DNA of 64,000 nt from Mactra quadrangularis (Eukaryota > Mollusca > Bivalvia > Venerida > Mactridae), in the NCBI GenBank assembly GCA_025267735.1, contig CM046294.1, forward strand, positions 40,051,570-40,115,569, written 5' to 3'. Positions 35,358-60,644 of the stretch are shown here, piece after piece. Below the pieces are notes generated by a model. It did not search any database, was not told where the DNA came from, and saw only the letters and a program-made list of their open reading frames with translations. The position numbers were made by a program, and so were the translations under genes. Each line of letters opens with the position of its first letter. The stretch's first letter is position 1.

Positions 35358-35363
35358 CACGTA
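35358..35363. repeat. Polinton target-site duplication, left
   Basis: CACGTA, repeated exactly at 57,833-57,838. Six base pairs is the duplication length known for Polintons. Confidence 0.92.
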
Positions 35364-36118
35364 AGTAGTATAATAGTGAGCGTGCCTGGCGCAGAGTCAA
35401 AAAAAAAATTTTTTTACAATTATAACAACAAAAAAATAAATAACATTTTTACTACTTTCAAATTTTTTATATATCCACAATATTTTCTCTTTCTCTATCT
35501 CCTCCTATGCCATAAGTAGTATAATAGGGGGCACGCCCACTATTATACTACTGTACAAACAAGGAGGAACAGTGAGGTGTGAGAAGTAAAAAAGGTACCC
35601 TCAGAAACAATGAACAAAAATTTACCCGGGGGAACTGCGGGGTGTGAGAAGTAGAAAAGGTACCCTCAGAAACTATAAAAAAATTACCCGGGGGAACTGT
35701 GGGGAGTTAGAAGTAAATGATGCTAATGCTAAAACTATAAAAAAACTACCCGGGGGAACTGTTGGGTGTGAGAAGCAGGAAAGGTACCCTCAGAAATAAC
35801 GAAACAATATTTACCCGGGGGAACTGCGGGGTGTGAGAAGCAGGAAAGGTACCCTCAGAAACAATGAAAAAAAAATTACCCGGGGGAACTGTGAGATGTG
35901 AGAAGCAGGAAAGCTACCCTCAGAAATTATAAAAAAATTACCCGGGGTTTGAGAAGTAAATGATGCTAATGCTAAAAATAGAAAAAAATTACCCGGGGGA
36001 ACTGTGAGGTGTGAGAAGTAAAAAAGGTACCCTCAGAAATAACGAAAAAAAATTACTCGGGGGAACTGTGAGGTGTGAGAAGTAAAAAAGGTACCCCTAT
36101 AAATAATAAAAAAAAATG
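35364..36118. repeat. Polinton left terminal inverted repeat
   Basis: The outer 200 bp (35,364-35,565) match the right terminus closely, including TGCCTGGCGCAGAGT, TCTTTCTCTATCTCCTCC and an inner palindrome AGTAGTATAATAGGGGGCACG...CCACTATTATACTAC (35,515-35,557) that repeats the element's own tip. The inner part (35,566-36,117) is a minisatellite of about nine units of 50-66 bp: GGAACTGTGAGGTGTGAGAA, AAAGGTACCCTCAGAAA, A-run, TTACCCGGG. Units three and seven carry a variant GTAAATGATGCTAATGCTAA. Confidence 0.9.
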
Positions 36119-36120
36119 TT

Positions 36121-36900
36121 CTAAAACTCAGTAATCTGTAATTCTTGTTCATAAAAACTACCTTTAATTTCTTCACCTTTTAAATCGTTTATTTCATAAG
36201 TAACAGGATCTGTATTTAAAACCTCTTCAATTACAAATATTTCTCTAGTCCAACGAGTAGTATAACCCTTTTCAAATTTACCTTTCTTTTTTGTTATTCT
36301 TACTCTATCACCAACTTTGAATTTAGGTTTTTTAATTTCCGTTTCTTTTTCTGGATATAAATTTTCATACACTGTTAATCTATTTTCTAATTTACTTGCC
36401 TCAATAGGTGTCATTTTAATAGAAGAATGAACTGTATTGTTATAATCTTTAACTAAGTCATCTAATATATTATAATATTTAGTAGTTTCATGAGCAGTAA
36501 AATGTTTATACATATGTTGTTTCATAGTTCCTATCCATCGTTCTACTACACTAGATTTTTCTTCATTCTCAGTTGAATATAACTTTATGTTATTATCTTT
36601 TAACAATTCTTTTACTTGTCTATTATAAAATTCAGATCCTTTATTCGACCAAATAAACATTGGTTTTCTTTCTTTAAATAATGTTTTAAATGCTTCACTT
36701 ACTGTTACTCCTGTTTTTTTATTTTTTAACGGTATTAACCAACCATATTTACTAAACACATCTATAACTGCTAATAAATATTTATAGTGTTTGTTTTGTT
36801 TTGAGTATTGTTGCATATCTACCAAATCAACTGCCCATGTTTGATCTATTGAATCAACATGTACACGTCTTTTAGGAAAAGATTTTTATAACCCTGTGAT
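36121..36900 (-). pseudogene. Polinton integrase (rve superfamily, c-type)
   Basis: Catalyses DNA strand transfer of Polinton ends. The conserved open part (36,121-36,825) shows the RNase H-like fold: first catalytic Asp in AVDLVDM, YLLAVIDVFSKYGWLIPLKN as core strands, the second block IWSNKGSEFYN, and the third-residue block SSVVERWIGTMK with Glu. A C-terminal SH3-like part follows (KFKVGDRVRITKK, TRWTREIF, VTYEINDLKGE). In the second block Asn replaces the expected catalytic Asp (family form DKGSEF). A frameshift near 36,880 separates the domain from its N-terminus (ELHH, then KRRVHVDSIDQTW). Lies next to the left terminal repeat, as usual for Polintons. Confidence 0.92.
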
Positions 36901-37303: not shown

Positions 37304-40300
37304 AAAAATAAACTAATAAAATGTCACCAAAAAATCCTTCAAAGATCTAATCACTGAAACTGTTATTGATGATATAGAAGAAACTGATATAACTAAATAT
37401 ATAAACTTATTAAAAGATAAAATAGTTATTAATCAATTTCCTTTGAAAATAAAAATAATAATAACAAGTGAATTTTCAACGCCTATGTCATTTGATATAA
37501 TAGAAAGTCATTACTCTCATCCTATTCAAATTATCCTAACACAAAATAATATACAAACATTCTATGAAACTTTAATACATAAATTTGAAGCTTGGATAGA
37601 TAAATTTCAAGAAAGAGGATCTGGTTTTGTTTTCATGAATATTAAGATGGTATTAGTAAAACAGTATAAATATGATTATCAGAAAGCTTCATTTTATATT
37701 CCTCTTCAATTCAAATCAATTAATATAATAAATGTACAAAATAAAGATGATAATAAATGCTTCTTATGGTCTATATTATCAAAGTTATATCCCGCTAATA
37801 AAGACAAACACAGAGTATCTAAATATAAAGCATATGAAAATAAAATTAACATGAAAGGAATTGAATATCCTGTACCAATAAAAGATATCTCAAAAGTAGA
37901 GAAACAAAATAATCTAAGTATAAATGTATTTGCGTTAGAGGACCAAACAAATAAAGAATCTTTATATCCAGTTAATGTTTCAAACGTAGAAAGTGAAAAT
38001 GTAGTTGATCTCTTATATATTGAAAGCAACGAAAATACCCATTACTGTTTAATCAAAGATTTAGATAGTTTTAGATATGATAAGAATAAGCATAAATCAT
38101 TTACATGTAGAAATTGTTTACAAGGATTTCAAAGAGAAGAAACATTAAAAAAAACATAGAGAAATATGTTTTGATAATGAACATTGTAAAATCATAATGC
38201 CTAAACCAGGAAAAAATATTCTTAAATTTGAAAATTATCATTTTAAAAACAAACTACCACTTGTTATCTATTCTGATTTCGAATCAAATAATATTCTGTT
38301 ATCCACCTAACAACCAAATCCAGATACATCATATATAAACCCAATACGTAAACAAAAAGTTAATAGTTATGGTATATACGTTCATTCAGAATATCCAGAC
38401 ATATATAAACCACAATACTTTTCTTATGTTGGTGATGATGCAGTAGAAAAATATATAGAAAAAGTAATAAAGATATTTAAAGAAATAAATTATAAGATAT
38501 ACCTTAATGAAAAGAAAAAAAAATATTAAATAAATATGAATTTCAAGAAGCAACAGAATGTTATATTTGAGGAGAAGAATTTGTGGAAATAGAAAGTGAT
38601 GAAGAAAATGAATCATTTCATTCTGAAAAATATAATAAAGTAAGAGAACATAATCATCTTTCAGGTAAATATAGAGGAGCAGCGTGTCAAACATGTAATA
38701 CAAAAGAAGGCAAAGCAACAAAATTAATACCTGTGTTCTTTCATAATGGATCAAATTATGATTTCCACTTTTTAATTGAAGAACTAATGAAATATGAAGA
38801 CAAATATAATAAAGAAAAACTCCTTTCTAAAAACTCAGAAACATATATTTCTATAGAATATGGTTCAAATCATAAAAAAATTAAGATTCCTAGACTCATA
38901 TAGATTTATGTTAAAAGGCTTATCAGATATTGCTAAATCAATGGATGAGTTTCCTATTTTAGAAAAAGAGTTTGATGGAAATATTACTCTACTAAAACAA
39001 AAAGGATTCTATCCATATGAATATGTAGATTCTATAAAGAAATTAAAAGATAAGAAATTGCCCGATATTAAGGAGTTTTATTCCACATTAACCCAAAAAA
39101 ACTATTACAGATAAAGAGTATGAACATGCTCAGCAAGTTTGGGAACATTATAATTGTAAAACTTTGAAAGATTATCATAATTTATATCTTAAAACAGATG
39201 TTCTTATTTTAGCAAATGCATTTGAAAAATTTAGAAAATTCTTTTTAAAACATCGTAATATTGATCCTGCATATTGCAATTCTGCACCAGGATTGACATG
39301 GCAATGTGGTTTAAAATATACTAAAGTAGAATTAGAATTATTAACCGATGTTGATATGTTGCAAATGTTTGAAAAAGGAATAAGAGGTGGATTCTCTGGT
39401 GTTCTAGGTCCAAGACATGTAAAAGCATTTAATAAATATACTCCTAACTATCATGATAATGGAAATAGAATATTAGATTCACATGAAATGAAAGAATGTT
39501 TAGAAATATTAAAGAATGGAGGAAACTTAAATGATTACTTATTAGAAAAATATTTATTATATCTTGACGCAAATAATTTATATGGTTGGGCAATGTCACA
39601 GAAATTACCAGCTAAAGATTTTAAATGGGAACAGGATCTTGATTATTATAGACATATACCAAAAGGAAGAGGATGTTTAATTGAATGTGACTTAAAGTAT
39701 ACAAACGAATGTAAAAAGAAAACATGTAAATATCCTTTAGCACCAGAGAGGATGAAAACAAATAAAGAAGATTTATCTGATTATCAATTAAATTTATTAG
39801 GAGATAAAACATTAGGTAAAGAAGAAAAACTATTTCTAACTTTATATGATAAAAAGAAATACATTGTTCATCATAGTATTTTAAAATAATACATTAAACT
39901 AGGATTACAGGTAACAAAAGTTCATAGAATAATTTCTTGTAAAGAATCAGATTGGTTAGCAAAGTATATTAATTTTAATACTGAGCAAAGAAAAAAAGCA
40001 AAATCTGATTTTGAAAAAGATCTTTGGAAACTGATGACCAACAGTTTCTATGGAAAGACACTAGAAAATATTAGAGGAAGAAATGAAATTATATTATCTA
40101 TTAATAGGGAAGAAGTAAAGAAATATATAAACAAACCAAACTTTAAAGACTCAATAATATTTAATGATAACTTTGTTGCAATTGAAAATAATGTTACTTC
40201 TATTAAATTTAATAAACATATTTATTTAGGACAAGCTATATTAGATTACTGAAAACAATTAATGTACAGCTTCTATTATAATGTTGTTAATAAACTATGG

Positions 40301-40384
40301 GAAAATAATGAATTAGTTGCTTCCGACTCGGTCTCTGGTGATAATCCAATTATTCTTAAATACAATAATAAAATATATACTAAG

Positions 40385-41040
40385 TGTCAAGATTTTCGGT
40401 GTAGAAACTTTAACAAGCTATTTGTGTGAGTATATTATGACTATCTTTCTGAGGTCTTTGCTAGGTCAGCCTTTTTATAAGGTCTGCCTATAAGAAAGGT
40501 CTGCCAAAGAAGGTCCGCTTCACCGAAGAATGTCCGCTTCACCAAAGAATGTCCTCTTCACCAAAGAAGGTCCTCTTCACCAAAGAAGGTCCTCTTCACC
40601 AAGGAAGGTCCACTTCAACAAAGAAGTTCTGCTTCACCAAAGGTCTGCCTACACCAAAGTCTGCCTCCACCAAAAAGGTCTGCCTACACCAAAGGTCTGC
40701 TTACACCAAAAAGGTCTGCCTACACAAAAGGTCTGCCTACACCAAAGGTCTGCCTACACTAAAGGTCTGCCTACACCAAAAAGGTCTGCCACCTATTATA
40801 TCGGAAGCAAGTCTACTTCGTTAGACTTGCTTCACTTTTGACATCGAGAGATCTATTCTCCGAACTGACTTTTTTTCCACTCCGCTTTATTAACAAAAAA
40901 ACATACATATATATATACAAAGCGCGAACCGGTGAGAAGACACCAGTGTTGACGTCACGTCATAGCAACGTCAAAACATAATAATAAGATGGCGTTAAAA
41001 TTGGTGTTTCTTTTCATACATAAAAATGGTTATTTTGACA
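40385..41040 (-). repeat. 3' LTR of the Gypsy element (656 bp)
   Basis: Matches the other LTR at 45,466-46,334 apart from a shorter internal minisatellite. Words ACTTCACCAAAGAAGGTCC and GTCTGCCTACACCAAA repeat at 40,500-40,795; frames through them are by-products. Point differences are few (for example TTTTCGG/TTATCGG near the edge, CCAGTG/CCATTG, TTGGTG/TTTGTG). Confidence 0.93.
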
Positions 41041-41055
41041 ATTGTCCCCTCCTAA
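41041..41055 (-). promoter_or_regulatory. Polypurine tract
   Basis: Directly abutting the 3' LTR; on the coding strand it reads AGGAGGGGACAAT. Position and purine run fit the plus-strand primer site of LTR retrotransposons. Confidence 0.65.
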
Positions 41056-41098
41056 AGGAAGTATTTATACTTCCAAAAATATAAAAAATAAACATTGT

Positions 41099-44000
41099 CT
41101 ATTCGTCTTGATACTGTCGACTCAAATAATCACCAAACAGATTGTCTGTTCCTTTAATAGCTTCAATTCTGAATTGACATGATTGTAGGAATAACGCCCA
41201 TCTTACTAATCTTCCATTGTCTGGTGTGCTCTTCTGGATATACGATAGTGAACTATGATCTGTTTGTATTACAAATTCTTTCCCGTACAAGTACTTTTGG
41301 AATCGCTTTATTCCAAAGATGATGGCTAAACATTCTCTCTCGCCGACTGAATAATTCTTCTCACGAGGTAGTAACTTCTTACTTGCATAAGCAATAGGAA
41401 ATAAACAGCCATCGAATCTCTGAAGTAAGGCTGCTCCAATTCCACAGTTACTTGCATCCGTCTGCAGAATAAATTCTTTCGTGAAATCTGGCAGATGTAA
41501 TATTGGACTTCTAACTAACTGTTCTTTCAAATGATTAAATGCTTGATCTTGATCATCTCCCCATTGAACATAATTAGAACGACCTTTCTTTGTAAGATCT
41601 GTCAACGGAGCTGCAATTTCAGCGAAGGATGGAATAAATCTTCGGTAATACCCAGCTAGTCATAAAAAAGCTCGGACTTGTCTCTTGGTTCTCGGCACTT
41701 CTGCTTCTTTGATCTTTATCAATTTCTCTTCTTCCATCTGCATAAGTCCATTACCAACTGTATGCCCAGTAAAACCAATATTGTTGAATCCAATATAACA
41801 TTTGGATGGCTTTACCGTGAGCTTTGCTTCTTTAAGTCTTCTAAATAGATCTCTCAACATCAATACATGTAAATACCATGTTTCTGTGTGTCCTATCATG
41901 TCATCAACATAGTTGTCCACATATTTGCACCCTTTAAGTAATTTGCGCATCATCCTATTAAAAGTTGCTCCTGAATTGACCATACCAAAAGGCATTTTCT
42001 TAAATTGATAAGTGCCTCGGTCAGTGGAAAAAGCTGTAAATCTTCTGCCTCGGTCTGCCACAGGAATCTGCCAATAACCTTTACATAAATCGATTTTTGT
42101 AAAGAACTTGTCATTGGTCAACTTTGCCATTATGTCGTCAACACTTGCCATTGGTTCGGTGTCAAACTTGGTGATACCATTTAGTCTTCTGAAATCAATA
42201 CAGAATCGATTACTTCCATCTTTCTTTTTAATGATTACCACTGGTGCGTTGTACTCTGAAATCGAAGGTTCAATCACGCCAGCTTCCAACATATTATGAA
42301 CTTCATTTTCAACATCTTGTCTCTTAGCATAAGGAATTGGATATTGCTTTACTCTTACAGGGGTCTCATCAGTCAACTCTACATGGTGCTCTATTAATGG
42401 AGTTGTACCAGGTTTTTCAGAGAACACTTCACTAAATTCTTTCAGTATGTCTTGGACTTGCTTCTTCTGATCTTTCGTTAGTTTTTCACTAATCTGAACG
42501 TGTCTGTAGGTCTGCTCACTGGAGTACTCTGGAAATTCTAACGGACTTGCATCATCTACTGCTCCATCAATACCATCATTTACTTCATCTATAACTGCTA
42601 CACTTGCTGCAATGGCTTTTGGGCGCTACTCATACTTCTTCAGTAAGTTTATGTGGAATGTCTTCTGCTTATTTCTGACTTGGATCTTGTAATCAAACTG
42701 ATTAATCACTTCAACAACATCAAAGGGTCCTTTCCACTGTAATATCATCTTGTTTCTATCTGTAGGCAGCAGCAGAAGAACTTTATCTCCGACCTTTAAT
42801 ACACGTTTACGTGCTCTCTTGTCGTAATGATGCTTGTATATTCTCTGAGACTTCATGATACTTTCTCTGGCTATTTTGCAAGTTTCTTCTAATCTTTGTT
42901 ACAAATTGAAAACATACATGTATGTATTCTGGAGTTCTGGATCTTCTCTCTTTGTCCAAATATCTTTCAATATTTGCATTGGTCCTTTAACTGTTCTTCC
43001 ATACAACAGTTCGAATAGAGCAAACCCCGTGCTAGCTTGTGGCACTTCTCGATATGCAAATAGTACAGATGGTAAATATCGATCCCAGTCGTTTGGTCGT
43101 TCTTGACACATTTTCTTCAGCATACTTTTAAGCACTCCATTCATCCGCTCACACAGTCCGTTGCATTTTGGATTGTATGGTGTTGTGAATAGTTGTTTGA
43201 CAGATATCAACCGGCAAATTTCTTTCATTACATCGGCAGTAAATTGACTTCCTCTGTCACTCAGCACTTCTGTTGGAAATCCTACTCTGGAATAAATTTC
43301 AAGCAGTGCTTCTGCAATTCTCTCTGTCTCTATCTTTGCTAGAGGAACTGCTTCTGGATAACGTGTAGCAAAATCCACAACAGTTAAGATATATCTATTG
43401 CCCCTGTCAGATATTGGAACTATTGGACCTATTAGGTCAACAGCAACTCTGCGAAACGGCTCGTCGATCACCGGCATGTCACCTAGTTGGACTTTCTTTA
43501 TTCTACCTTTCGGAATAGTTTTCTGGCAAATGTCGCAAGATCGGCAAAACCGTGCGATATCACTTGTGATTCCTGGCCAGTGAAAACTTGTAATAACTCT
43601 GTCTTCCGTCTTCTTTGCAGATAGATGACCTCCTACAATTGATTCATGTGCCAATTCCATCACTCTTTTCCTATGGTCTGCAGGTACAACAATCTGCCTT
43701 ACTTCATCACCATTCTTCTGAGTAAATATTCTCATCAGCACTCCGTTGTCTACTGCATATTTGTACGATGCCCCTGACTTGGTCTTGAACTCATCTTCCT
43801 TGTCTACCAATTCATGTATCTTCACTATAGACTTGTCATTCTTTTGGCACTCCTTTAATTTCTCAATATCCACTTCTTTCTTGCATGAAGGAACGGGAAC
43901 ACAGAGGGCTTTTATAGGCTCTTTGGCCTTCTTGCTTTGAGCTCTGGTCATCGTGGCTGCTGCTACAGTGTTTCCTTGAGATATTTTCCATTCTGGATCA

Positions 44001-45424
44001 GGCTTGTCTCTTACTCATGAAACATTGCCTATCACTAAGTCGCAAATTAATGACTTAGGAACCATGGCCTCTATTTCTCCAGAGAAATATGGTGTATCCA
44101 CTACAATCTTTGCAACTGGCACTACCTTTGCTTCGCCGTCAATAGTTATCATCACTATTTCTTTACCAGTAAATTCTTCATCTTTAACAAACTGTCTCCT
44201 TACTGCCGCTAACTCACATCCCGTGTCTCTCAAGACTTTAACTGAATGTGTTCCTACACACCCTGTATTAACTTCTAAATTTCTATCTTCTCCTAGAATG
44301 TCCACCGTGCATGCTCCAGCTAAAATTGGAACTGATTCCCCATTGGCTAGCTTTAATTTACCTTCCTCCGTATTCTTATCTAAGACACTGAGGTCTGCCT
44401 TTGCACATACAGCAGCTACTTTATGATCATTTGTAGTATTAGCTGACGTTAACTGTCGACAGTCTCTTGCAATATGTCCAGATCTATTGCAAATGAAACA
44501 CGTCTTGACTGGCTTCTGATCGTTCCATCTGCAGTATTTGGCCAAGTGACCTGTCTGTTTACAGTTATAGCATGTCTTTAATCTTGTGTCTCTTGCATCG
44601 TCGTTTCTATCCTTGCTATTCACTAGTGATCCACCATTATTATTTCTTTGTACTGACGGTCCTTTTTGGATCAATGATGCGGTCCCATTGTGTGCTTCGA
44701 TGTACTGTTCTGCAATACGGGTTAATTCCTCTATAGAAGAGGGCACCCTTTCTTTCAGGAATATCGCCAGCTCTGTCGAACATCCTTCAATGAATTGTTC
44801 TTTAATTAGCATCTCAGTTATTCCTTGGTAAGACTTTTCAACTCCAGCAAGGTCTGCCCATCTTGAAAAATATCTTCTAAGTCTTTCAATAAATTGAAAC
44901 ACCGACTCGCCTGGCAAAGGTTTGCTTTGACGGAACTTCATTCTGAAACCTTCCTCCGTCAGTTGATATCTTTTTAGAATGGCATTTTTCAAAGCATCAT
45001 AATCGTTCGCTTCTTCATTGGACATACTTATGAACACATCCAATGCTTTTCCAGATAACAATGAGCTCAAACTCATGGCCCAGCTTTCCTTTTGCCAATT
45101 TTGAGTCTTAGCAAACCTCTCAAACCGCTCTAAGTAAGCGTCAATGCTATCATTCACGTCATCGAACTTTGGAATCTTCGGACGTAGGACATCATTACTC
45201 TCGCCATTGGCCCTTTTGTTGGACTTTATGCGTTCAATTTCTAAGTCCTTCTCCTTCATCTTTAGCTCAAAACTCATCTCCATTTGCCTTCTTTCTTCAT
45301 CTCTTCTTCTAACTCTGTCCTCTCTTGCTATGTATTCGCCTTCTTTTTCTTTCACGAATGCCAGCAGATCTCCCCCTGTCAAGCCTAATATTTCACCCAA
45401 TCTCAACCATTCGTCATAATACAT
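41099..45424 (-). pseudogene. gag-pol polyprotein (SCAN-like gag, PR, INT, RT, RNase H) with four in-frame stops
   Basis: One continuous frame of 1,441 codons. Residues 1-75: charged coiled-coil region. About 80-250: capsid region with GESVFQFIERLRRYFSRW and MLIKEQFIEGCSTELAIFL, resembling SCAN. About 283 and 305: CCHC knuckles CYNCKQTGHLAKYC and CFICNRSGHIARDC. About 397: protease LRDTGCE. Integrase with GGHLSAKKTEDRV...CRSCDICQ zinc site and VDLIGPI, SDRGSQF, NGLCERMNG. Reverse transcriptase KMPFGMVNSGATF and CKYVDNYVDDMIG. RNase H ILQTDASNCGIGAALLQ. Premature stops are TGA (44,015-44,017), TAA (42,899-42,901), TAG (42,626-42,628) and TGA (41,660-41,662). No frameshift separates domains, so decay is by substitutions only. 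Confidence 0.94.
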
Positions 45425-45445
45425 CTTGCTATAGCTTGCTAAAGT

Positions 45446-45463
45446 ATCCCGGACGAGTCCCCA
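45446..45463 (-). promoter_or_regulatory. Primer-binding site, tRNA-Pro-like
   Basis: The coding strand reads TGGGGACTCGTCCGGGAT two bases after the 5' LTR. From memory, the tRNA-Pro primer site of murine leukaemia-type viruses differs from this at one position. Use of tRNA-Pro is therefore likely, pending comparison with the host's tRNA-Pro genes. Confidence 0.7.
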
Positions 45464-45465
45464 AT

Positions 45466-46334
45466 TGTCAAGATTATCGGTGTAGATACTTTAACAAGCT
45501 ATTTGTGTGAGTATATTATGACTATCTTTCTGAGGTCTTTGCTAGGTCAGCCTTTTTATAAGGTCTGCCTATAAGAAAGGTCTGCTTCACCAAAGAAGGT
45601 CCGCTTCACCGAAGAATGTCCGCTTCACCAAAGAATGTCCTCTTCACCAAAGAAGGTCCTCTTCACCAAAGAAGGTCCGCTTCACCAAAGAAGGTCCTCT
45701 TCACCAAAGAAAGTCCACTTCACCAAAGAAGGTCCTCTTCACCAAGAAAGTCCACTTCACCAAAGAAGGTCCGCTTCACCAAAGAAGGTCCTCTTCACCA
45801 AAGAAAGTCCACTTCACCAAAGAAGGTCTGCTTCACCAAAGAAGGTCCTCTTCACCAAAGAAAGTCCACTTCACCAAAGAAGGTCCTCTTCACCAAGGAA
45901 GGTCCACTTCAACAAAGAAGTTCTGCTTCACCAAAGGTCTGCCTACACCAAAGTCTGCCTCCACCAAAAAGGTCTGCCTACACCAAAGGTCTGCTTACAC
46001 CAAAAAGGTCTGCCTACACAAAAGGTCTGCCTGCACCAAAGGTCTGCCTACACTAAAGGTCTGCCTACACCAAAAAGGTCTGCCCCCTATTATATCGGAA
46101 GCAAGTCTACTTCGTTAGACTTGCTTCACTTTTGACATCGAGAGATCTATTCTCCGAACTGACTTTTTTTCCACTCCGCTTTATTAACAAAAAAACATAC
46201 ATATATATATACAAAGCGCGAACCGGTGAGAAGACACCATTGTTGACGTCACGTCATAGCAACGTCAAAACATAATAATAAGATGGCGTTAAAATTTGTG
46301 TTTCTTTTCATACATAAAAATGGTTATTTTGACA
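45466..46334 (-). repeat. 5' LTR of the Gypsy element (869 bp)
   Basis: Longer than its partner by 213 bp, all in the TCACCAAAGAAGGTCC minisatellite (45,580-45,910 here). LTRs are identical at insertion, so unit gain here or loss in the other copy happened afterwards. Both LTRs contain CGAGAGATCTATTCTCCGAA and end in GGTTATTTTGACA. Confidence 0.93.
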
Positions 46335-46620
46335 CTAAGCAAAAGTTATAACGGAAATAGGTACAAAAACGTAAATATTTTCGAAAGTTTTAATGAAAAT
46401 GATGTGAAATTTAATATGATAATAAAACAATAATTTGTCATGAGTATTGAATAGTAAAACAATATGTGTAGGTTTTTGGAAAGAAAATGTTCACAGAATC
46501 AAAAGCCAAGTACGAGAAAAAAAGTCAACAAGATTTGATAATGAGTGTGTGTCTAATTTTAATTCACGTCTGCTAAAATCCTGAGTCTTTAAGACCCAAA
46601 TAGGACGTCGTAAAAACGTA

Positions 46621-46985
46621 GTGGGATGCTTGTCCATTCCTCATGTAAAGCAACGTTTAGTTCCTGTATCGTCACATACTGTTCAAGACGTTGACGCATG
46701 CATCTGTCAAACACGTCCCAAAGACGTTCTATTGGATCTTTTTCAAGTGAAAATGACGACAAATCTAAATTCTCAATGTAATAAGTCCTGCGAAATTGAA
46801 TTGTTGCCCAGGCGGAATGTTGTCTGGCGTTATCTTGTTAGAGAAAAAGACATGGGCGCCCGATAGCGTATTTAACAGCGACGTTATTAGAATTTTCACC
46901 GTCACCTGTAGCGTTGGGCGTTGTGGGTCCCATTTATCACTAAAAAAACCTAGATTGGCAGAATGGACAATATTACTACACAATT
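46621..46985 (-). pseudogene. Tc1-like transposase, C-terminal remnant
   Basis: The minus strand encodes DNARQHSAW, containing the second catalytic Asp, and 34 residues later the catalytic Glu in KDPIERLWDVF, i.e. the DD34E spacing of Tc1 transposases. VTIQELNVALHEEWTSIP follows, the usual C-terminal tail. Upstream, GFFSDKWDP and GAHVFFS are in another frame, so there is at least one frameshift. The N-terminal DNA-binding half is not recognised, so the element is non-autonomous. Confidence 0.8.
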
Positions 46986-47034
46986 AACTGTTTGAATAAA
47001 TTTGCTCCATGATCTGTAGCCTGCTAAATAACCC

Positions 47035-47200
47035 CGAACGATCCGCAACGTTCCGTTACGTCACGGTCGGAACAACTTAACCCAAAGACAACTCAACCCG
47101 AGAAAACTCAACTCCCAACTAACGGACTGAGTTGTCACAACTTTTAGGTGAGTTATCCACGGGTTGAGTTGTCTTCGGGTTGAATTTCCCCGTATCCGAA
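47035..47200. repeat. Palindromic insert inside the Tc1-like element
   Basis: GACAACTCAACCCGAGAAAA and GGGTTGAGTTGTC are complementary across about 90 bp, with further GAGTTGT / ACAACTT words between and a CCGTTACG...CCGAACG edge. This foldback replaces part of the expected transposase N-terminus and may be a small element nested one level deeper. Confidence 0.5.
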
Positions 47201-48869
47201 CGTTAACTAACAGTAGTTACTGAACACGCTGGTGGTAATTGTTAATAGGGAATCTGTCAAACGGCTTATCCTCGGTTTTCAATGCTCAATATTGGCATAT
47301 TTACTGACTTGTTTCCAAGATGACAAGTGCTACAATGTCACGCAGTCTCTAGAGTTCTCAGCAAACTTTATTTGTTTGTGTACACACTAACGTGCTGCGC
47401 AGGAGTCGTGAAACTCGGTAAAAAGGATTTACCGATGCTGTTCACCCAAGCGTGACCGCACAAGAAATTTTAACACACCATCATGTGTAAACATACCGAG
47501 AGACTTAATGATGGCATATATACCAATGTATGATATAAAATAAAAAAGTATGTAAAGAAAATTACCGTTTGCGTTATAACTTTTGCTTAGTATATATTGA
47601 TAAAATAGAAGACATTGCTGATAGATATGAAGAACTTTTTACTACAGACCGGATGATTTAGAAGTTTGGACAAGTAATGGGTTTTCTAAATTAAAATCTG
47701 TAATTAAACATGAAACAGAAAAAGAAATGTTTAGAGTTGTTACTCCACAAGGATTTGTAGATGTTACAGAGGATCATTCTTTACTTAATGAAAATAATGA
47801 ACTTGTTAAACCAAAAGATTTAACATTAAATACTAATCTTCTTTTTAATAATAGTTATAAAGAAGCAGCGGATCCTCCTATGAGAAAAGAATTTCTAAAA
47901 TTAGAACCAACAACAATAGAAGAGAAAAAAAGCTTTTATTGAAGGGTTATTTTTAGCAGATGGAACCAGCGGAGTTTATCAAACAAAATGGGGTATAAAA
48001 TATTCTTGGAATCTAAGTAATCAAGATTTAGATCTTCTAAATAAATGTTTAGAGTATTGTAAGGAAGTGTATCCAACTGATTTTAAAATAATTGATTGTA
48101 TGAAATCATCAGCTATTTATAGAGTAATTCCAAAAGGAAATATTAAAGTAATGGCAACAAAATTTGAAAAGTTTTATACTGACAAAAAAGAAAAATATAT
48201 TCCTATATTAAATTCTTAATAAAGATTACAATTATAGATTATTCTTCTTTAGAGGATTTTATCAAGGAGATGGTTGTAAGAAAGTATTTTCATTTTCAAA
48301 AAAATCAAAGATTACATTTTCATGTTTACACTACCTTATAACAAGTCTAGGATATAATTGTAATATTAATACAAGATTAGATAAAACGAATATATTTTCA
48401 TTAACTATAACATTGAAAGAACAGATTGCGCAAGTAAAAAAGATAACACCTCTAGGTAAAGAAAAAAAAATCGTATATGATTTGTCAACAGAAACTGGAA
48501 ACTTCAATTGTGGATTTCCTTTAATTGTAAAAAACACTGATTCAATATTCTTAAGTATTAAAACTAAAGATATTTATGAAGATATGAACAATTATGAATG
48601 AAATAGTTTTTTTAAGAAGTAAAGCATATTCTTTTACATTGACAGATTTAAGTGAAGAAAAAAATTTAAAAGGAATTGGAAAAACAACGATAAAGAAAAG
48701 TATTAAATTCGAAGATTATAAAGATTGTCTATTTAACAGTAAAACTAAAATGAATAAAATATATACACTAAACTCTAATAAACATGAAATGTTTGTTAAT
48801 GAAATAAATAAAATAAGTATGTCTCCCTTTGATGATAAGAGATATATCTTAGATAATGGAATAGAAACT

Positions 48870-49280
48870 TTACCTTATGGTACTCAACTTCCATGAAACA
48901 AATCCAGTTAATAACATACCACCTATTATAAAGACATATTTATTATTTTTTTGTTCATCTGATGATACATAGAAATCACTTAATGTTGGTTTTGGTTCAT
49001 CAAGATAATAATATTGTTTCATCGCTTTATCAACATCATCATCAGTTTGAACAGCATGATGTTCTTTTTTTAATTGTTTATTCATAAAATCTAATCTTTG
49101 TGTACTCTTTTTATTCCATTCTGCTGTTGCTGCTTGTAATTGTTCCATTGCTTTGTCATGTCTTTTTCTTTCTTCATCACTATTATTTCTACCAAGACGT
49201 GAAAGTAAATAATTACCCCCAGTAAAAGCTAACGCGTTAACTACTGCACCACCCACCATCATCGCTACTGCACTTGCCAT
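48870..49280 (-). CDS. Conserved Polinton protein, 136 aa, membrane-associated
   Basis: Starts MASAVAMMVGGAVVNALAF, a small-residue hydrophobic segment. A charged coiled-coil region follows (SDEERKRHDKAMEQLQAATA, then LDFMNKQLKKEHHAVQ), then a C-terminal hydrophobic segment (YVFIIGGMLLTGF). I recognise this pattern as a conserved but unnamed Polinton protein. The frame is intact. Four bases separate it from the next gene upstream on the same strand, suggesting one transcript; its end overlaps the polymerase gene tail to tail by 27 bp. Confidence 0.75.
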   Translation of the reverse strand: MASAVAMMVGGAVVNALAFTGGNYLLSRLGRNNSDEERKRHDKAMEQLQAATAEWNKKSTQRLDFMNKQLKKEHHAVQTDDDVDKAMKQYYYLDEPKPTLSDFYVSSDEQKNNKYVFIIGGMLLTGFVSWKLSTIR

Positions 49281-50593: not shown

Positions 50594-51277
50594 TTAATCC
50601 ATAATCCAGTATCCAGTTGGTTGATCAGTTTTTAATATTAATTTACGATGTTTCTTTTTTTTCAATTATTCTTTTATCTTTATTCTTTCTTCCAAAGTTT
50701 CTATTACATCATTTTCTCTTAAACAATTATCAAAACTATCCCTATCTTTTGTATAAAATATACACAACCATTTTGTTTGTTCTCTTAAATCTTTTAAAAC
50801 AGAATTATATCTCTGAGAAATAACCCATACACTTTGTTCTGCGTGTCTACCAGAGAAAGATAACTCTGAAAGCATATCTCTTTTCTTTGTTAATTCTTTT
50901 GTTGCACTACAATCATCAATAATATATAATGTTGGTTGACCAGCATATCTTTTATTAAACAGTCTTAATAATTCTTGTAACTTTTCTTCTTCATTAACAA
51001 TAGGATTAACAATTATTACATTTTTTGATTTTGGTTTTTTAACATCAACAATCCAAGAACGATTTTTATAAGCTTTATTCCAATGAATAGTTGGACACAA
51101 GATAACAATAAATTTAAACACTTTAATATAATGTTTTTCTAAAGTATCAAGTACAAACTCTGTTTTACCACAACCTGTTTGACCGCAAATAATAGCACAA
51201 TGAGGATATTTTGGAAAGTTAACCATTTTAATATGTAACTTCTTTAAATCTTCCATCTTCAAAAATAATCTGTGCAT
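50594..51277 (-). pseudogene. Genome-packaging ATPase (FtsK/HerA-type, A32-like)
   Basis: P-loop ATPase that would pump DNA into capsids. Walker A AIICGQTGCGKTEF (about residue 28), Walker B TLYIIDDCSA (about 117), then LSFSGRHAEQSVWVISQRYN, the conserved sensor region of this family. Likely start is MEDLKKL (51,256), overlapping the end of the capsid gene. The frame meets TAA at 50,666, after which the natural tail continues (KLILKTDQPTGYWIMD) to 50,594; loss of about 24 residues may or may not matter. Of the core genes this one is nearest to intact. Confidence 0.92.
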
Positions 51278-52494
51278 CCTGGATAATAAATATATAAATA
51301 TTTAATGGTTCATCTGCTCCTGCTTCTTTCATTATATGTATTGTAATACCTTCTGAAGCATTTTCAATTCTTCTTCCTGAACCATGTAGTGAATTATCAT
51401 CTGTTGAACGTAAATCTAACCATCATGCGTTACTATCTGTTAAATATTTATCTAATGTTATATTGGATAAATATAAATCTTTTATAATCTTATTTGTTTC
51501 TTTATTTCGTTTTGAATTTAAAGCATAGCATTTATTTATCTCATCCCACTGTTGATATGCTTTCATTCCTTGACTGTACAGTTGATTTGGGACTCCTTCA
51601 ATTGTCATTTCTACTTTTGTTATATTAGGATTGGAAAAAAATTTCAGTTGATGTTCTCTCTGGGTCTTCAAATAACATTAGAATACCTTTCATACTTCTT
51701 GCTGGAACATTTAAATTAATATTCCATAATGTATCAGATTTGTTTTTAGTTATTTTCATGTGTCTAAGTATTCTATCATATAAAACAACCATTTTACCAC
51801 TGACTTGTTGTCTTATTTGTCTTGCTAATTCAACATCAGAAACACTATCAAATTCTAAACAAATATTTTTAATAACATACGAAGCTGAGGCGTCACTTGA
51901 TCTAAATACTTTGTTATACTCATTGAATGTAAGTTCATATTCAAGTCTATCTCCTATACCAGCTTGATAAAATGGCATATGTGTTTCTAATATTTCAAAA
52001 TCAAGTGGAATACAAAATCTATTTCCATATGCTTTTGCGATGGCTTCATCTTCTTTATCTGCGCTAGCATTACCACATTTAACTCTATGTTTTAACATAT
52101 TATTTTGTCCAATACCTTGATATGCCATATTTACACGTTCTGTAGGTGTCTTCCATAAATCAATATAACAATGATAGATATCACTATCATAAATTGATAA
52201 AACTTCATTTCCTGATATTCTTATTGTTGTTTTTTTAATTATTGATATTCCAAGATTTGGATACACTGTTGCGTTTGCGTCATTGTCACTTTTGATTTCA
52301 ATTTCAAACGCTAATTTAACTGATCCAGGAACAATAACATCATTACTACTTAAATTAGAAAATCTCACTAACAATTGTTGATTTTGGTCAATAGTTGAGG
52401 GATTATTAGTTATTACAACGCTCTGTCTAATTCCCCTCACACCTCTTGGTTCTCTTATTTTTCTGTAGGGGTTTAATTTTCACCAAACGCAGAC
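51228..52494 (-). pseudogene. Major capsid protein candidate (double jelly-roll)
   Basis: About 420 codons. It starts MSAFGE at 52,494, shifts frame within 20 codons, then runs 52,440-51,625 with NPSTIDQNQQLLVRFSNL, ISGNEVLSIYDSDIYHCYID, RFCIPLDFEILETHMPFYQA, YELTFNEYNKV and LNVPARSMKGILMLFEDPE. It shifts again near 51,640, continues ITKVEMTIEGVPNQLYSQGM, has a TGA at 51,423 and ends near FIIQDAQIIFEDGRF. The pattern matches the Polinton hexon-like protein family as I remember it; beta-rich composition and position next to the ATPase agree. The assignment as major capsid rather than another structural protein is from memory. Confidence 0.75.
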
Positions 52495-52512
52495 ATTTTT
52501 TAAAGAAATAAA

Positions 52513-53814
52513 ATGGCTGAAGGAGGTTATGATTTTGATATAGATGATAATATAGATGTAGATCATGAATTAGATGAAGAAATTATTCCAGATGATTTTG
52601 ATGAATTTAATAGAACTATACAAGACCAAAGCATTCGTATTGAAGATATTGGTGATGTTGATGAAAGAACACGATTAATTGTAGAACAGAAACAAAGTAT
52701 TGTTAGAGAATTTTACAATTTGATAAGAGAAAAGTATGGGTTAGTCCCTAAACGTATAGATATTACAAACTTTAAACTTGGTCCTGATAATAAAACGTTA
52801 TTTTTAAAGGTTGGAGATAGAGAAATTCAACTTAAAAGCGAAAGATGTGTTGGTTTTATAGGCCTTCGTACATTGGCTAGTAGAATTGGTAGAGGTGGAA
52901 CAAGTGCAATTAGAGACTTGTTGAATTTACCTAATTATAACTCTACAACTAGAGAATTATCAGCACAGGCTGTTGCGAGTTTACAAAATATAGAAAGAAC
53001 TCTCCCTAATGTTGATGCTGTGGAAATGACTGATTTACCTAATACAGCTGAAACTATTGTGAAAGAAATAGCAACATCATTTAACACACAAACAGATATG
53101 AAAAGAGGCACACAAACAGATATTGACAAAAGAGAAATGGATGGTATAAGCAAAGCAATGACTACTGTAAAAGAAGAGATTTCAAATCCATTAGTAAAAT
53201 TGGCTGAAACAAATAAAGACATCGCAAAACAAAAAGATAAATTAGAACAAGCTAAGGCTGACAATGATAAATTCCAAATAGATAGGATAAGTAATCGATT
53301 AGTAGATTTAGAGATTGAAAGGAGTGGAATAATAGAAGAAATTGATATAAATAGAGAAAAAATACGTACTCAAGTAAATAGAATAAAAGAAACTATACAT
53401 AAACTATTAAATGAAGACAAGACATTAGCAGAAAGAATTAGAACGTTATTCAGAGAACAAGGAATTACAATTGTTAGTGTTTTAACTGCTTTTGGAATTG
53501 TTTTTGGTCTTATTGTTGAAACTCTTATTCCCGGTACTAGTACTGGTGGAAGTGTAACACCACTAAAAGATGGAGATGGTGTAAAAGATTGGGTAAAAAA
53601 GCAATTATCAAATCTTGGTAAACTATTAGCTAATCTTGCAGGAAAAGCAGCAGAAGCATTACCTGGTATTATTGGTGCTATTGTATCTTGGTTGTTATCA
53701 ACAGCTAGTAATATTGTTTATTGGTTAGGAAATCATTTATGGGCAATAATTGTTATTGTTGCTGGACTTTTATATACAGCTGCTAGAGAATATATTAAAA
53801 AATCTCGTAAATAA
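52513..53814 (+). CDS. Conserved 433-aa Polinton protein, coiled coil plus membrane C-terminus
   Basis: The only large intact Polinton gene here. Acidic N-terminus (residues 1-60), a small globular part with LGPDNKTLFLKVGDREIQLK (about 90-110) and FIGLRTLASRIGRGG, a long coiled coil (about 215-310), AERIRTLFREQGITIVSVL (about 305), then several hydrophobic helices separated by a Gly/Thr-rich linker (about 325-430), ending in a basic tail. This layout (coiled coil, amphipathic KLLANLAGKAAEALPGIIGA, two terminal hydrophobic helices) is widespread in invertebrate Polintons. It suggests a virion membrane or membrane-disrupting role, but nothing proves it. Divergent from the capsid gene with an 18-bp gap. 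Confidence 0.8.
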   Translation: MAEGGYDFDIDDNIDVDHELDEEIIPDDFDEFNRTIQDQSIRIEDIGDVDERTRLIVEQKQSIVREFYNLIREKYGLVPKRIDITNFKLGPDNKTLFLKVGDREIQLKSERCVGFIGLRTLASRIGRGGTSAIRDLLNLPNYNSTTRELSAQAVASLQNIERTLPNVDAVEMTDLPNTAETIVKEIATSFNTQTDMKRGTQTDIDKREMDGISKAMTTVKEEISNPLVKLAETNKDIAKQKDKLEQAKADNDKFQIDRISNRLVDLEIERSGIIEEIDINREKIRTQVNRIKETIHKLLNEDKTLAERIRTLFREQGITIVSVLTAFGIVFGLIVETLIPGTSTGGSVTPLKDGDGVKDWVKKQLSNLGKLLANLAGKAAEALPGIIGAIVSWLLSTASNIVYWLGNHLWAIIVIVAGLLYTAAREYIKKSRK

Positions 53815-55160
53815 GTAAAGCAGTAAGACCTATTACAATGCTACCAACAATTATTGCTGTTTTGTTGTCTTCATGTTGTATTGCTTCCTTTGAGGATATT
53901 ATAGAGGGTTGTTTTTTAATAGGTTCTGGTATAGATTTCTTTGGTTCTGGTATAGATTTCTTTGGTTCTGGTAAAGATATATTTGTTGGTGTTCCCTTGA
54001 GTTCTACATGTTTCTTTTGTATAATGGGTTGAGTATTTACATCATCATTCAACCCAAGCTTTTGATCATCAGTAGCTACTACAATATAATTATTATATTC
54101 TTGAATTGTTCTAATTCTTAATTCCATATTACTCGGAGACATATACAACCCAATTCCATAAACATAGTCGACTTTACTTCTAGCATATTCTAATGTGTTT
54201 TGATATTTATCAATTTGACTTGGTAAATCTATTGGACTATTGATAGCATCATCAATGTTTGCAAGAAATTGTTTTTGAGCATCAAAAGCTGTTCCTGTTC
54301 CGAGTATATCTGTTCAAGTTTGAGATTGTGATCCAAGGATAGCCCAGCAATATATCCTTATGGATTCGTTTATCCTTTCAACTCCTGCTTTTGTAAAACC
54401 TTTTGAATTATCTAAAATAAATGTAGTCCATGCATCCTCAACATCATCTGTTTGTTGAAGATAATCAATGTGGACTTTCTTAGGTGGTAAATATTCACAT
54501 GATGAAATACCACAGTGTCTACCACCTGAAACCTCAGGCCCAAATGTCATCTTTGATAAATCTAGATTAGATATTATTCTACTAACAATATGTTGTGATG
54601 AATTATCATGTCTAAAATCTGTTCGCCTCCACGCAGAGTGACTGGTTGTGTAGATGACTCCAAGACCATCACCACTTGGATATATTTTTTGCCTCCAGTC
54701 TGCATTATGGTCTACATTAAACTCTTTACATATTCGTTCGTAAGCACCACGGTCATAACTATTGTTGAAGGCATTCCAGCTTTTATCTTGGGGTAATGCA
54801 ATAGAAAGTTCAACAAGAATTCTCCTTGTTTGATAGTAAACATGAAACAAAAATAGTGAACCAGTTAAACCACCTGCTTTTATATGATTTTCATGATCAA
54901 CACCGCAGCCCGTAGTGGCACACCATATTGCAAAATTTAGTTGATTTTGCCAAAATAATAACCAATCTGCATTCCAACGTTGTACAATCTCATTTGATAC
55001 AACATTTGGTAATAAATATTGTTCAAATACATTTGGAAAATCTACGTTGAAGCTTTTCCCATCTAATGAAATGACAATAGATTGTTTTATAATATTAATT
55101 GTTTTATTTTTATAACTTCCACTTTTAAAATAGTTAGCATCGCTATTATATTTAAATTCT
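53795..55160 (-). pseudogene. Conserved Polinton structural-type protein (one stop)
   Basis: Reads from about 55,160 down to 53,795: SLDGKSFNVDFPNVFEQYLL, WNADWLLFWQNQLNFAIWC, HIKAGGLTGSLF, YYQTRRILVELSIALPQD, a TGA at 54,312, then TAFDAQKQFLANIDDA and GIGLYMSPSNMELRIRTIQE. Three tandem KSIPEP units and a C-terminal membrane segment (TAIIVGSIVIGLTALLIYEI) end it. Length (about 450 codons), Trp-rich core and conservation suggest a capsid or internal virion protein; identity unknown. No start is certain, as the 5' end meets a stop near EFKYNSDANYF. The 3' end overlaps the 433-aa gene by 20 bp. Confidence 0.6.
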
Positions 55161-55680
55161 TAATAAAAGCCTTACCCTTAACAATAGAGGGAAAACTTAT
55201 AGGGGGATTTTATAATCTACAAGATGTAATAAATGATTTTAAAAAAGCAAATGTTGATTTGTCAGTAAATATGCAAAATGAAATAGCTACTTTAAAATCT
55301 GACAGAGAAATTAAATTAACTCACGGTCTTTCACAAATGTTAGGTATTGATAATGTAAATTGGATAAAAGGAATACATGATGGTAAAACCTCTGTAGATT
55401 TTGCTCCTTATAAACAGTTATATGTTCATCTAGAACAAATAAATAGTTCTAACAATTTCTTTGATGGAGCACCTAGTAATATTCTTGGAGTTGTTCCTAT
55501 TGAGAATAGATCGTTTGGTGATATTGTTCATATAAATTTTAGTAACCCTGAATATTAACAATTAACACTTGGTAATATCACAGAATTAAATTTAAGCATG
55601 TGTGATGAGAAAGGACAGAAAATAAATAACCATGGATTGCCTATTAGTTGTGTGCTAGAAATTATTACAGAAAAAATGAG
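55160..55680 (+). pseudogene. Minor-capsid-like Polinton protein (C-terminal part)
   Basis: LPLTIEGKLIGGFYNLQDVI, then REIKLTHGLSQMLGIDN, YKQLYVHLEQINSSNNFFDG, NILGVVPIENRSFGDIVHIN, a TAA at 55,556, and MCDEKGQKINNHGLPISCVLEI in the same frame. This tail (IxLTxGLxxMLG; LYxxLxxIN; VxPxxxxFGxIxHI; LxxxDExGxxI) is one I associate with a beta-rich Polinton virion protein, perhaps the single jelly-roll minor capsid. The N-terminal part is missing: sequence upstream of 55,160 is the reverse of the neighbouring gene. Confidence 0.55.
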
Positions 55681-56325
55681 TATATTTGGTGTTAAAAGAA
55701 AAAATAATAAAGGAGAAGAATTAAATAATTTAGAAACTACTATAAATGATTTACAATTAAGTATTATAAAATTAGTGCAAACAGATGATACTATATTTAA
55801 TAACATAACAAATATAGAATCAGATATTATACAATTAAAACGTACAGACAATACTATATCTTCTAGTATAACAAATTTGGAAACAGTTAATGAAAAAAAG
55901 AAAAATTATGTTACAATATTTGGTGAATCAAAAGGTCCTTTAGTTCCTGGTGAAGTGTTTTCAATGGGAAATGGTGGAAAAGTACGTAAAGTTGGTTATA
56001 CAGTAATGAAAAGTTGTTTCTATTGGTGTATCATATACAAAAGGAAAGGATCCTGGTTATGGTGCTATTGCTTTTACTAATAACGGAAAAACAAACTGGG
56101 ATTGTAGATGTAGATTTAAATTTGATGAAGGTTATGCATATCGTGAATTTAAAGAAAATTACATAATCGAAGCTGGAGATGTCATTAATTTCCAGGTATA
56201 TGACGACTTTGACTATATCCCTCATTCAGAAGTAATAGAAGCAGGGAAGATCTATACGGGAAGTCTTCCTACTAGCACTGTAACTAATACAGTTGCTTCA
56301 TTATTATTAGAAGTTTTAGATAATT
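55676..56325 (+). pseudogene. Fibre-like protein 1 (frameshifted)
   Basis: Starts MSIFGVKRKNNKGEELNN, then a heptad-like stalk with repeated TDxTIxxxITNxE units (about residues 25-75), then a head beginning YVTIFGESKGPLVPGEVFSM, GNGGKVRKVGYTVMKSC. A frameshift near 56,020 leads to VSYTKGKDPGYGAIAF, YIIEAGDVINFQVYDDF and a terminal SLLLEVLDN. A stalk plus a beta head fits a trimeric fibre or spike. It overlaps the end of the minor-capsid-like gene and is paralogous to the next gene. Confidence 0.6.
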
Positions 56326-56340
56326 AATTTTATCTTTATA

Positions 56341-57241
56341 AATGAATAAATTTGGTATAAAAAGAAACAATAATTTAGAAAATAAAATAAATGATATAAA
56401 TTCTGATATTAAAAAAAATAAAACAAAAAAAATAAAAATTATATTACAATATATGGTGAATTAAAGGGTCCTTTTTATTCTAATGCTATTTTTTCTATGG
56501 GAAGTGGTGGAAAAGAAAAAAGTGTTGGTTATAGAGTATTAAAACGTTGTAAACTTTTTTCTTTTGGGGTATCATATTCAAAAGGAGATAATCTGGGTTA
56601 TGATACTATTTTAATAACAAAAAATGGAGAAGATTATATAGATTGTAAATGTTTTTTTTTAATAGATAAAAATTTTAAATATCGAAATTTTGAGGAAGAA
56701 TATATAATTAATCCCGGAGAAATACTTAATTTTAAAATAAGTAATATATATTCAAAACTTTTGGAAGAAGTAATAAAAAATGCTGTTATAATTGCTGAAA
56801 CAAATCCATCACTTGTGAATGAAGTGATGGGTTTAATAGAATCAAAAGATTTTGAAGAAGAAGAACAAGCAGAACTTATATTTAAAAAACTTAATATAGA
56901 ATATAAAAAATATAAAAAAATAGCTAATGCTTTTATGTATGTTGACTCTTTTCTTTTTATAGCAGCTGCAACAATGGGAATTCCTGCTGCTTTATCACCA
57001 AATAATACTTCCATTTGCTATTCCAGCTGGATTAGCTTTTCTATTTGGTGGAATTGTTAAAATAGGAAAACATATAGTGGATAAAAAAGCAAAAAAAAAT
57101 AATGATATTAGAGTATTAGCAGATAGTAAATTAAATAGTATAAAAAATTTAGTTTCAAAAGCTTTAGTTGATGGACAAATCTCAGATATAGAATTTAATT
57201 TAAATTTAAATGAGTTAAATAAATGTAATGAAATGAAATAA
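56341..57241 (+). pseudogene. Fibre-like protein 2 head joined to a conserved Polinton C-terminal domain (frameshifted)
   Basis: Starts MNKFGIKRNNNLENKIND (shorter stalk), frameshifts near 56,440, then YITIYGELKGPFYSNAIFSM, GSGGKEKSVGYRVLKRCK, VSYSKGDNLGYDTI and INPGEILNFKI mirror fibre 1. Instead of ending there it continues with LLEEVIKNAVIIAETNPSL, an acidic helix, a hydrophobic segment (SFLFIAAATMGIPAALSP), a frameshift near 57,010, then LADSKLNSIKNLVSKALVDG and ISDIEFNLNLNELNKCNEMK. The last module (LAxxKLNxIxxxVSKALxDGxISDxEF) is a conserved Polinton protein that I know as a separate gene, so this looks like a fusion. Confidence 0.6.
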
Positions 57242-57352: not shown

Positions 57353-57419
57353 AATGTTAATTTAAATTTTAATACTGATAAACCACCTGATTATTTCTCT
57401 GTTAATCATTTTATGCAAT

Positions 57420-57832
57420 AGCATCATTTACTTCTCACACACCACAGATCCCCCGGGTAAATTTTTTTCGTTATTTCTGAGGGTACCTTTCCTGCTTCTC
57501 ACACCCAACAGTTCCCCGGGGTGAATTTTTATAGTTTCTGAGGGTAGCTTTCTTGCTTCTCACACCTCACAGTTCCCCCGGTAATTTTTTTCATTGTTTC
57601 TGAGGGTACCTTTTTTACTTCTCACACCTCACTGTTCCTCCATGTTTGTACAGTAGTATAATAGTGGGCGTGCCCCCTATTATACTACTTATGGCATAGG
57701 AGGAGAAAGAGAACATATTGTGGATATATAAAAAATTTGAAAGTAGTAAAAATGTTATTTATTTTTTTAGTTGTTATAATTGTAAAAATTTTTTTTTTAC
57801 TCTGCGCCAGGCACGCTCACTATTATACTTCT
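57420..57832. repeat. Polinton right terminal inverted repeat
   Basis: Complement of the left terminus. The outer part (57,645-57,832) has CAGTAGTATAATAGTGGGCG...CCCCCTATTATACTACTT (tip palindrome) and ACTCTGCGCCAGGCACGCTC, ending ATTATACTTCT. The inner minisatellite has only about four units against nine on the left. The tip differs from the left by one base (AGAAGT versus AGTAGT). Confidence 0.9.
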
Positions 57833-57838
57833 CACGTA
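57833..57838. repeat. Polinton target-site duplication, right
   Basis: CACGTA, identical to 35,358-35,363. Confidence 0.92.
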
Positions 57839-58878: not shown

Positions 58879-59227
58879 GTAATTTTTTAACAAAAAACAT
58901 TTCTATTAAAATGTTCATAAATTTTCATTCAAATACAAAGCAGCTTTTCATTTGATACAGTAGAGAAAAACATCTTAGTCAAGAGTAACGTTAACCCCTA
59001 CTAGTCAGACAGGTAATAACATTTCGTCAGTCAAAACACAAATGGTAGCAATCATCGATAGTACATGTGTCCAGATATGATTTAAACGGCGGCGATGCCT
59101 TATTCCACGTTGTATTTGGACGCCTTCTTATATTGCAATGGATCGTCTTGATTCGTATTGATTTAGCGTTACATTTGTGATTAAATCGCGATTTAGAGTA
59201 TAAACTGTATACCAATTTTTGTTACAG

Positions 59228-60494: not shown

Positions 60495-60644
60495 GTAAGG
60501 GAACAATAATCTAACTTAATCTTACTTATTCAATTATTATGCTGTATGCGGCTTAAATTTTACTTAAAAAAATAAATAAGTTACGGGGATTACGTGAAAC
60601 CAGGGATTTCCCGTAATCCCTAAAATTCAGGGATTTCATGTAAT

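Follow-up and report, generated by a model that had tools for sequence, protein, structure and literature searches.

The question raised by this locus, which lies within a 64,000-nucleotide stretch of DNA analysed as a whole (the window), is what interrupts the catalytic motif C of a protein-primed Polinton polymerase (pPolB). The original prediction proposed an intein in the DNA polymerase of an animal Polinton and named a series of sequence motifs, all of which were recovered at their predicted positions: the polymerase residues ..LVASD are followed by SVSGDNPII, VTEDHSLL, EGLFLADG, RGFYQGDG and ..GFPLIVKN, and the polymerase then resumes with TDSIF. The boundaries are exact to the base, with the serine codon at 40328, the end of ..LIVKN at 48535 and TDSIF from 48536. 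The description of 40328-48535 as one unbroken intein, however, did not survive the analysis: a contiguous intein of 8.2 kb was rejected, as the intein amounts to ~1.0 kb and the rest is 7.2 kb of transposable elements, nested in one another, that split it. The first part of the intein (40328..40379, plus strand) extends from block A SVSGDNPII to the TA beside the nested insert, and its boundary is confirmed by the empty copies L104 and L105 described below. The remaining part (47591..48535, plus strand) is distributed over several reading frames and is recognized by intein profiles, by weak TIGR01445 and LAGLIDADG_3 matches, and by PDB matches to NEQ068 and NEQ528; it comprises the pieces with block B VTEDHSLL (47631-47939, plus strand), with the first LAGLIDADG motif (47920-48216, plus strand), and with the second LAGLIDADG motif and the C-terminal block ..LIVKN (48212-48535, plus strand). 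With its frame changes, stops and C-extein deletion, the window copy is a pseudogene. The reading developed below is that one Polinton family, in a genome that is very likely an animal's, very probably carries a homing LAGLIDADG PolB motif-C intein in its pPolB, and that the copy in the window is dead.

The sequence that splits the intein consists of two elements, both of which must be younger than the intein itself. The outer insert (40380..47590, positions counted by hand) resembles a DNA transposon, being bounded by 19-bp terminal inverted repeats (CTAAGCAAAAGTTATAACG) and flanked at either end by TA; a transposase-like frame in this insert (46592-46837, minus strand) has no Pfam match, and a Tc1/mariner label would be given by eye. 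An LTR retrotransposon of 5.95 kb encoding gag, reverse transcriptase and integrase (40385..46334, minus strand; Pfam PF00078, PF00665, PF17921, PF03732) sits within the left inverted repeat of the outer insert and is flanked by the 5-bp target duplication CTAAG. Its LTRs (40385-41040 and 45466-46334) share 99.1% identity across 656 aligned bases. They contain an array of ~19-bp repeats (40434-40840, 45520-46120) that differs in length, giving LTRs of 656 and 869 bases that are otherwise 99% identical.

The interrupted polymerase is encoded by an element with the complement of features of a Polinton/Maverick, namely terminal inverted repeats, an rve integrase, a pPolB and an A32-type ATPase. 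The left terminal inverted repeat (35359..36115) contains internal sub-repeats, and its arms pair with the right terminal inverted repeat (57408..57837; the pairing spans ~57408-57837) at 80-98% complementarity. The retroviral-type integrase is encoded at 36121..36885 on the minus strand (PF00665, E=1.8e-10), and the A32-like packaging ATPase at 50666..51301 on the minus strand (PF04665, E=1.8e-13). The N-extein, for which the analysis covers 39092..40327 (plus strand) and which has more pieces upstream from ~37320, consists of pPolB pieces in broken frames up to ..LVASD that are 44-46% identical to the intein-free pPolB of L001 and match PF03175 at E=8.7e-5, under the gathering score. The C-extein (48536..48896, plus strand), read in the sequence and with relatives in other copies, begins with TDSIFLSIKTKDIYEDM.. 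and continues into the polymerase C-terminus with an internal deletion. Three candidate ORFs for double jelly-roll capsid proteins (51628-52479 and 54317-55159 on the minus strand, 52504-53811 on the plus strand) have no meaningful Pfam match. Two adjacent ORFs at 55559-57060 share a repeated domain (..NYVTIFGESKGP.. and ..NYITIYGELKGP..), likewise with no meaningful Pfam match, and possibly represent a duplicated surface or fibre-like Polinton protein. The right end of the Polinton is flanked by ORFs at 58494-60514, at least two of which have immunoglobulin-domain matches (59197-59589 weak, 60116-60511 strong). Since these immunoglobulin-like exons adjoin the element (C2-set_2, E=2.6e-12) and the genome measures 979 Mb, the host genome is very likely that of an animal; the predicted intein, its site and its Polinton host are supported, and the animal genome is supported as very likely.

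The assignment of the interruption to inteins was examined with profiles. Motif-C PolB inteins were collected with regular-expression patterns from viral contigs and from prokaryote genomes (22 prokaryote loci, of which 20 archaeal ones were used), and profiles were built from 50 motif-C PolB inteins for the N-terminal domain and 23 for the C-terminal domain, with 20 Markov-shuffled windows as a control. The N-terminal profile has one significant match in the window, at 47631-47939 (E=1.3e-17, 60.6 bits; best shuffle 11.4 bits), and the C-terminal profile matches 48212-48598 (E=6.4e-10, 35.4 bits; best shuffle 15.3 bits). Because the profile members had been gathered with motif patterns, the shared motif letters were masked, whereupon the N-terminal profile kept 23.9 bits and the C-terminal profile 17.0 bits, the latter barely exceeding the best shuffle. 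Chance motifs were rejected as the source of the window match on the basis of the scores against shuffled windows and this masked rerun. Block A taken alone is weak (10.0 bits, E=0.071, within the shuffle range) and aligns from S1 in the correct frame. The broken pieces of the window copy fall below the cut-offs of TIGR01445 (E=0.0089) and LAGLIDADG_3 (E=0.0023 and 0.032), and short NCBIfam queries gave no match. Among 177,635 PDB sequences, the best match of the block-B piece is NEQ068, the N-terminal half of the Nanoarchaeum equitans split PolB intein (E=0.012), and the sole match of the C-terminal piece is NEQ528, the C-terminal half of the same intein (E=0.0036). The N. equitans split intein is not known to carry an endonuclease. 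The insertion lies between D and T of xxD|TDS, as in the pol-c allele, and its closest similarity is to inteins at this site, inteins of other sites having been compared through the PDB only. The interruption between ASD and TDS of pPolB motif C is supported by this analysis as a LAGLIDADG intein of the archaeal/giant-virus pol-c type.

Intact copies exist in other Polintons of the same genome (979 Mb, 447 contigs), where the C-terminal intein piece has at least 12 matches at at least 10 places. Four of the first eight copies fetched read through the N-extein, intein and C-extein in frame, while the other four, the window copy included, are broken. The open frames at the four places span 1507, 1514, 1230 and 1114 aa, and the inteins measure 334 aa in L080, 341 aa in L082, and 338 aa in both L084 and L085. 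The L080 intein scores above the cut-offs of TIGR01445 intein_Nterm (37.6 bits; cut-off 24.5) and LAGLIDADG_3 (40.2 bits in two stretches; cut-off 22.5) and below that of PF14890 Intein_splicing (24.4 vs 35.8), and it matches I-DmoI (E=1.8e-4) and NEQ068 (E=0.0011) in the PDB. The N-terminal Ser nucleophile is present as SVSGD[TN]P in all nine filled copies with a readable left junction, window included; the TxxH of block B reads VTEDHSL in the window and in L079-L085 and TEDHS in L088; the two LAGLIDADG motifs retain catalytic acids (GFFLADG and GFYQGDG); and the terminal Asn precedes the Thr of the host (..KN|TDS or ..SN|TDS). At the penultimate position, 8 of 10 copies have Lys and two have Ser, and the usual His is absent; a penultimate His is usual in inteins with known exceptions, and was treated as non-defining. 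A lineage-specific insert that does not splice, or a plain homing-endonuclease gene, would fit the PF14890 score below cut-off, and splicing is predicted here from sequence. Such an insert is nevertheless highly improbable given the presence of both N- and C-terminal splicing blocks, the TIGR01445 score above cut-off, the position within a catalytic motif, where the exteins on either side are unbroken and in frame, and a low dN/dS of 0.19-0.31 in the six pairs of read-through copies, which indicates purifying selection on the intein.

The conserved residues suggest how such an intein would work. Ser1, the TxxH histidine, the terminal Asn and the polymerase Thr+1 would excise the 334-341-aa intein and join ASD to TDS again; since ASD-TDS carries the catalytic aspartates, an unspliced polymerase would presumably be dead. 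The endonuclease is predicted to cut motif C wherever another Polinton copy lacks the intein, and repair templated by a filled copy would then insert it, which constitutes homing. The window copy is dead, and the two nested transposable elements broke it up later.

Empty targets are found in the same genome. The polymerase piece has at least 83 matches, 30 rows of which were examined for the intein by tblastn; it was detected in 10 rows, representing nine places that all belong to the window's family, and was absent from the other 20. Within this family, the intein occupies nine of the 11 places that carry the polymerase piece. The two exceptions, L104 and L105 on contig C14 (with L117 and L124 as second matches at the same places), read VASD-TDS, a scarless and precise empty site. 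Their polymerases are decayed. With 141 kb between them on a single contig and a C-flank difference of only 2%, the two copies may derive from one empty element or one event. Nine rows from two other families (L106-L114, 44-46% identical) have an uninterrupted YTDTDS or FSDTDS, so that none of the nine readable pPolB loci of these families contains the intein; the remaining seven of the 20 intein-negative rows show no readable motif C in the frame searched and were left out of the empty count. The pPolBs L001 and L004 from IMG/VR are also uninterrupted. In another Polinton family of this genome (L120-L123, on contigs C19, C11, C15 and C9), an insert of ~165 bases follows FGK within polymerase motif B; it has GTAAGT..CAG ends and appears to be a spliceosomal intron of the pPolB gene.

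The distribution of filled sites could also be produced by an immobile passenger, present in the Polinton family from before the spread of its copies, handed down vertically and later lost from the two empty copies: the intein occupies the same codon in all nine filled places with a polymerase piece, and precise loss can resemble absence. Vertical descent predicts equal silent divergence in the intein and in host genes, but all six pairs of the four read-through copies disagree with this expectation. Their intein dS ranges over 0.18-0.38, compared with 0.04-0.14 for the N-extein, 0.08-0.23 for the C-extein and 0.013-0.054 for the packaging ATPase of the same elements (140-156 codons; six pairs). 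In its proportion of silent differences, the intein exceeds the N-extein by a factor of 2.3-5.4 and the ATPase by a factor of 5.6-23 in every pair; by Fisher tests, on pairs that are not independent, the excess is significant in all six pairs against the ATPase (p from 5.6e-4 to 6.9e-9), in all six against the N-extein, and in four of six against the C-extein. The reverse case is observed in L079, L080 and L081, whose inteins are near-identical (0.017-0.060 per segment) and whose ATPases, one of which carries three stops, differ mutually at dS 0.12-0.19. The mean divergence across the 21 pairs that seven copies provide goes up at both junctions; in the four exceptional pairs (three among L079-L081, and L083-L084), the intein does not exceed the divergence of its flanks or does so in its first quarter only. 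Divergence also alternates within the intein, as in the comparison of L084 with L085, whose successive quarters differ by 0.032, 0.127, 0.008 and 0.132. A C-flank divergence of ~0.2 from L080 in ungapped comparisons was dismissed as an indel artefact, the value with gaps being 0.015-0.036 (12 gap columns). The purely vertical passenger was rejected on the silent divergence of intein and host, the reverse cases and the mosaics, and, codon-exact loss being unlikely without selection, this explanation as a whole is improbable. A raised mutation rate of the intein is insufficient, since it leaves the reverse cases of L079-L081 unexplained. Because silent divergence and mosaic structure do not match the host element, the inteins have their own histories and recombine, as expected under homing and gene conversion between Polintons.

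The insertion site itself shows an unusual pattern of silent variation in the 11 copies compared (nine filled and two empty, out of 12 inspected; one filled copy differs between the left-hand and right-hand sets). The mean pairwise difference per base is 0.17-0.55 in the six codons ASD|TDS (positions -3 to +3) and 0 to 0.12 in 32 of the 34 neighbouring codons, the exceptions being codon -11 (0.33) and codon +20 (0.18, resulting from the deletion in the window copy). Since copies were selected by the amino acids ASD and TDS, the invariance of these residues is partly by construction. Two were missed: on the left, the pattern went undetected in L087, and on the right, L081 has TDSIV for TDSIF and keeps TDS. 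Serine is encoded by both TCN and AGY codons on either side of the insertion, and the right-hand codon ACA is common to both empty copies and occurs in no filled copy. The six target codons rank within the eight most variable of 40, a chance of ~7e-6 by hand calculation on the assumption of codon independence, which fails. Short co-conversion tracts accompanying diverged inteins would give such a silent island, and selection for cleavage resistance would give it equally. We offer tentatively, as a reading that is less likely than not, that the 18-bp island records an arms race in an animal germline, in which Polintons evade the homing endonuclease through silent recoding of the catalytic motif, serine switches between TCN and AGY included, intein alleles give way to diverged ones able to cut the recoded sites, and intein and target co-diversify while the element otherwise stays near-identical.

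The origin of the intein was addressed with a tree of 39 N-terminal domains over 107 columns, which included 20 archaeal inteins and, out of 24 phage-type split inteins, eight. A single clade (99/97) holds the Polinton inteins and groups with giant-virus-like and phage PolB inteins at a weak node (81/52), and the archaeal inteins stand apart from this group (85/91). By path, the nearest sequences to the Polinton inteins are the giant-virus-like L041 and L012, on long branches. The suggested gene flow from giant viruses is thus compatible with the tree and such a transfer is plausible, whereas the placement of the Polinton clade among its neighbours is ambiguous. An intein acquired from a giant-virus (Nucleocytoviricota) PolB intein sharing a cell with the Polinton would account for L041 (48.7 bits) and L012 (47.8 bits) being the closest to the block-B piece in a set of 3887 ORFs from 55 viral loci, for the junctions ..LKN|TDS and ..VKN|TDS in these two PolBs, and for a penultimate Lys in both giant-virus-like sequences and in none of 21 archaeal ones. 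Weighed against the weak node, the long branches, and a giant-virus label for L012 and L041 that rests on DNA_pol_B matches and on how the sequences were read (a single candidate neighbour gene was compared with Pfam and gave no match), this origin is a possibility that falls somewhat short of an even chance. Many phage-type PolBs from IMG/VR (L024-L040, L042-L050, L052-L055) end within a motif-C intein, reading VGD|SFTGDTPLF...VTEDHSLFN... and then a stop, which looks like a split intein in a group of phages. Searches for related loci with single pieces were unproductive. Of two further ones, the first gave a single locus, L086, whose sequence reads as an intein within a methylase-like phage gene, and the second gave only L002, on the same contig as L001; L003 was discarded as a phage false match. 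Searches against PHROGs gave weak matches only, of ambiguous meaning.

Motif C had been predicted to be a site shared with archaeal and giant-virus PolB inteins, which agrees with a published account of the inteins of Mimivirus and N. equitans (PMC549080). The Mimivirus PolB intein is described there as a "pol-c" allele of 351 aa at YGD|TDS (Ogata et al., 2005). The Polinton intein resembles it in the motif-C site, Ser1...Asn, Thr+1, the LAGLIDADG endonuclease and size (351 vs 334-341 aa), and differs in its host, the protein-primed polymerase of a Polinton on chromosomes that are very likely those of an animal, and in its penultimate Lys or Ser. The N. equitans PolB intein, which occupies the same site and provides the best PDB sequence matches of the window pieces, is split in two genes, NEQ068 and NEQ528 (PMC549080), unlike that of the Polintons. 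Whether inteins had been described in Polintons was a question attached to the original prediction, and the answer is a partial one: homing-endonuclease domains at different positions of polinton pPolBs are already reported as suggesting intein invasions (Krupovic et al., 2024, PMC11071308, citing Jeong 2023 on nematodes), and the literature searched, as far as these sources were accessible, does not describe an animal Polinton with a complete intein. The intein described here is like those inserts in placing an endonuclease domain within a Polinton pPolB, attributed by these authors to intein invasion. The related cryptophyte Polinton-like viruses are likewise reported to have homing endonucleases, either standing alone or as fusions with replication proteins, there of the GIY-YIG and HNH families and in protist hosts (PMC12220804). 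The kind of insertion is thus already known, and what is new, as far as the literature searched, is a complete intein in a multi-copy Polinton family, very likely of an animal genome, together with empty alleles and a silently diversified target.

The coexistence of filled and empty copies in one genome means that homing, loss, target resistance and exchange between elements can be studied together. An intact-frame intein carried by a virus-like element in very likely animal chromosomes is a rare case of a homing parasite, one in which the catalytic site of the polymerase would be held hostage to splicing. As the site is common to archaeal, phage and giant-virus polymerases, the finding bears on how such parasites may move between large DNA viruses and Polintons.
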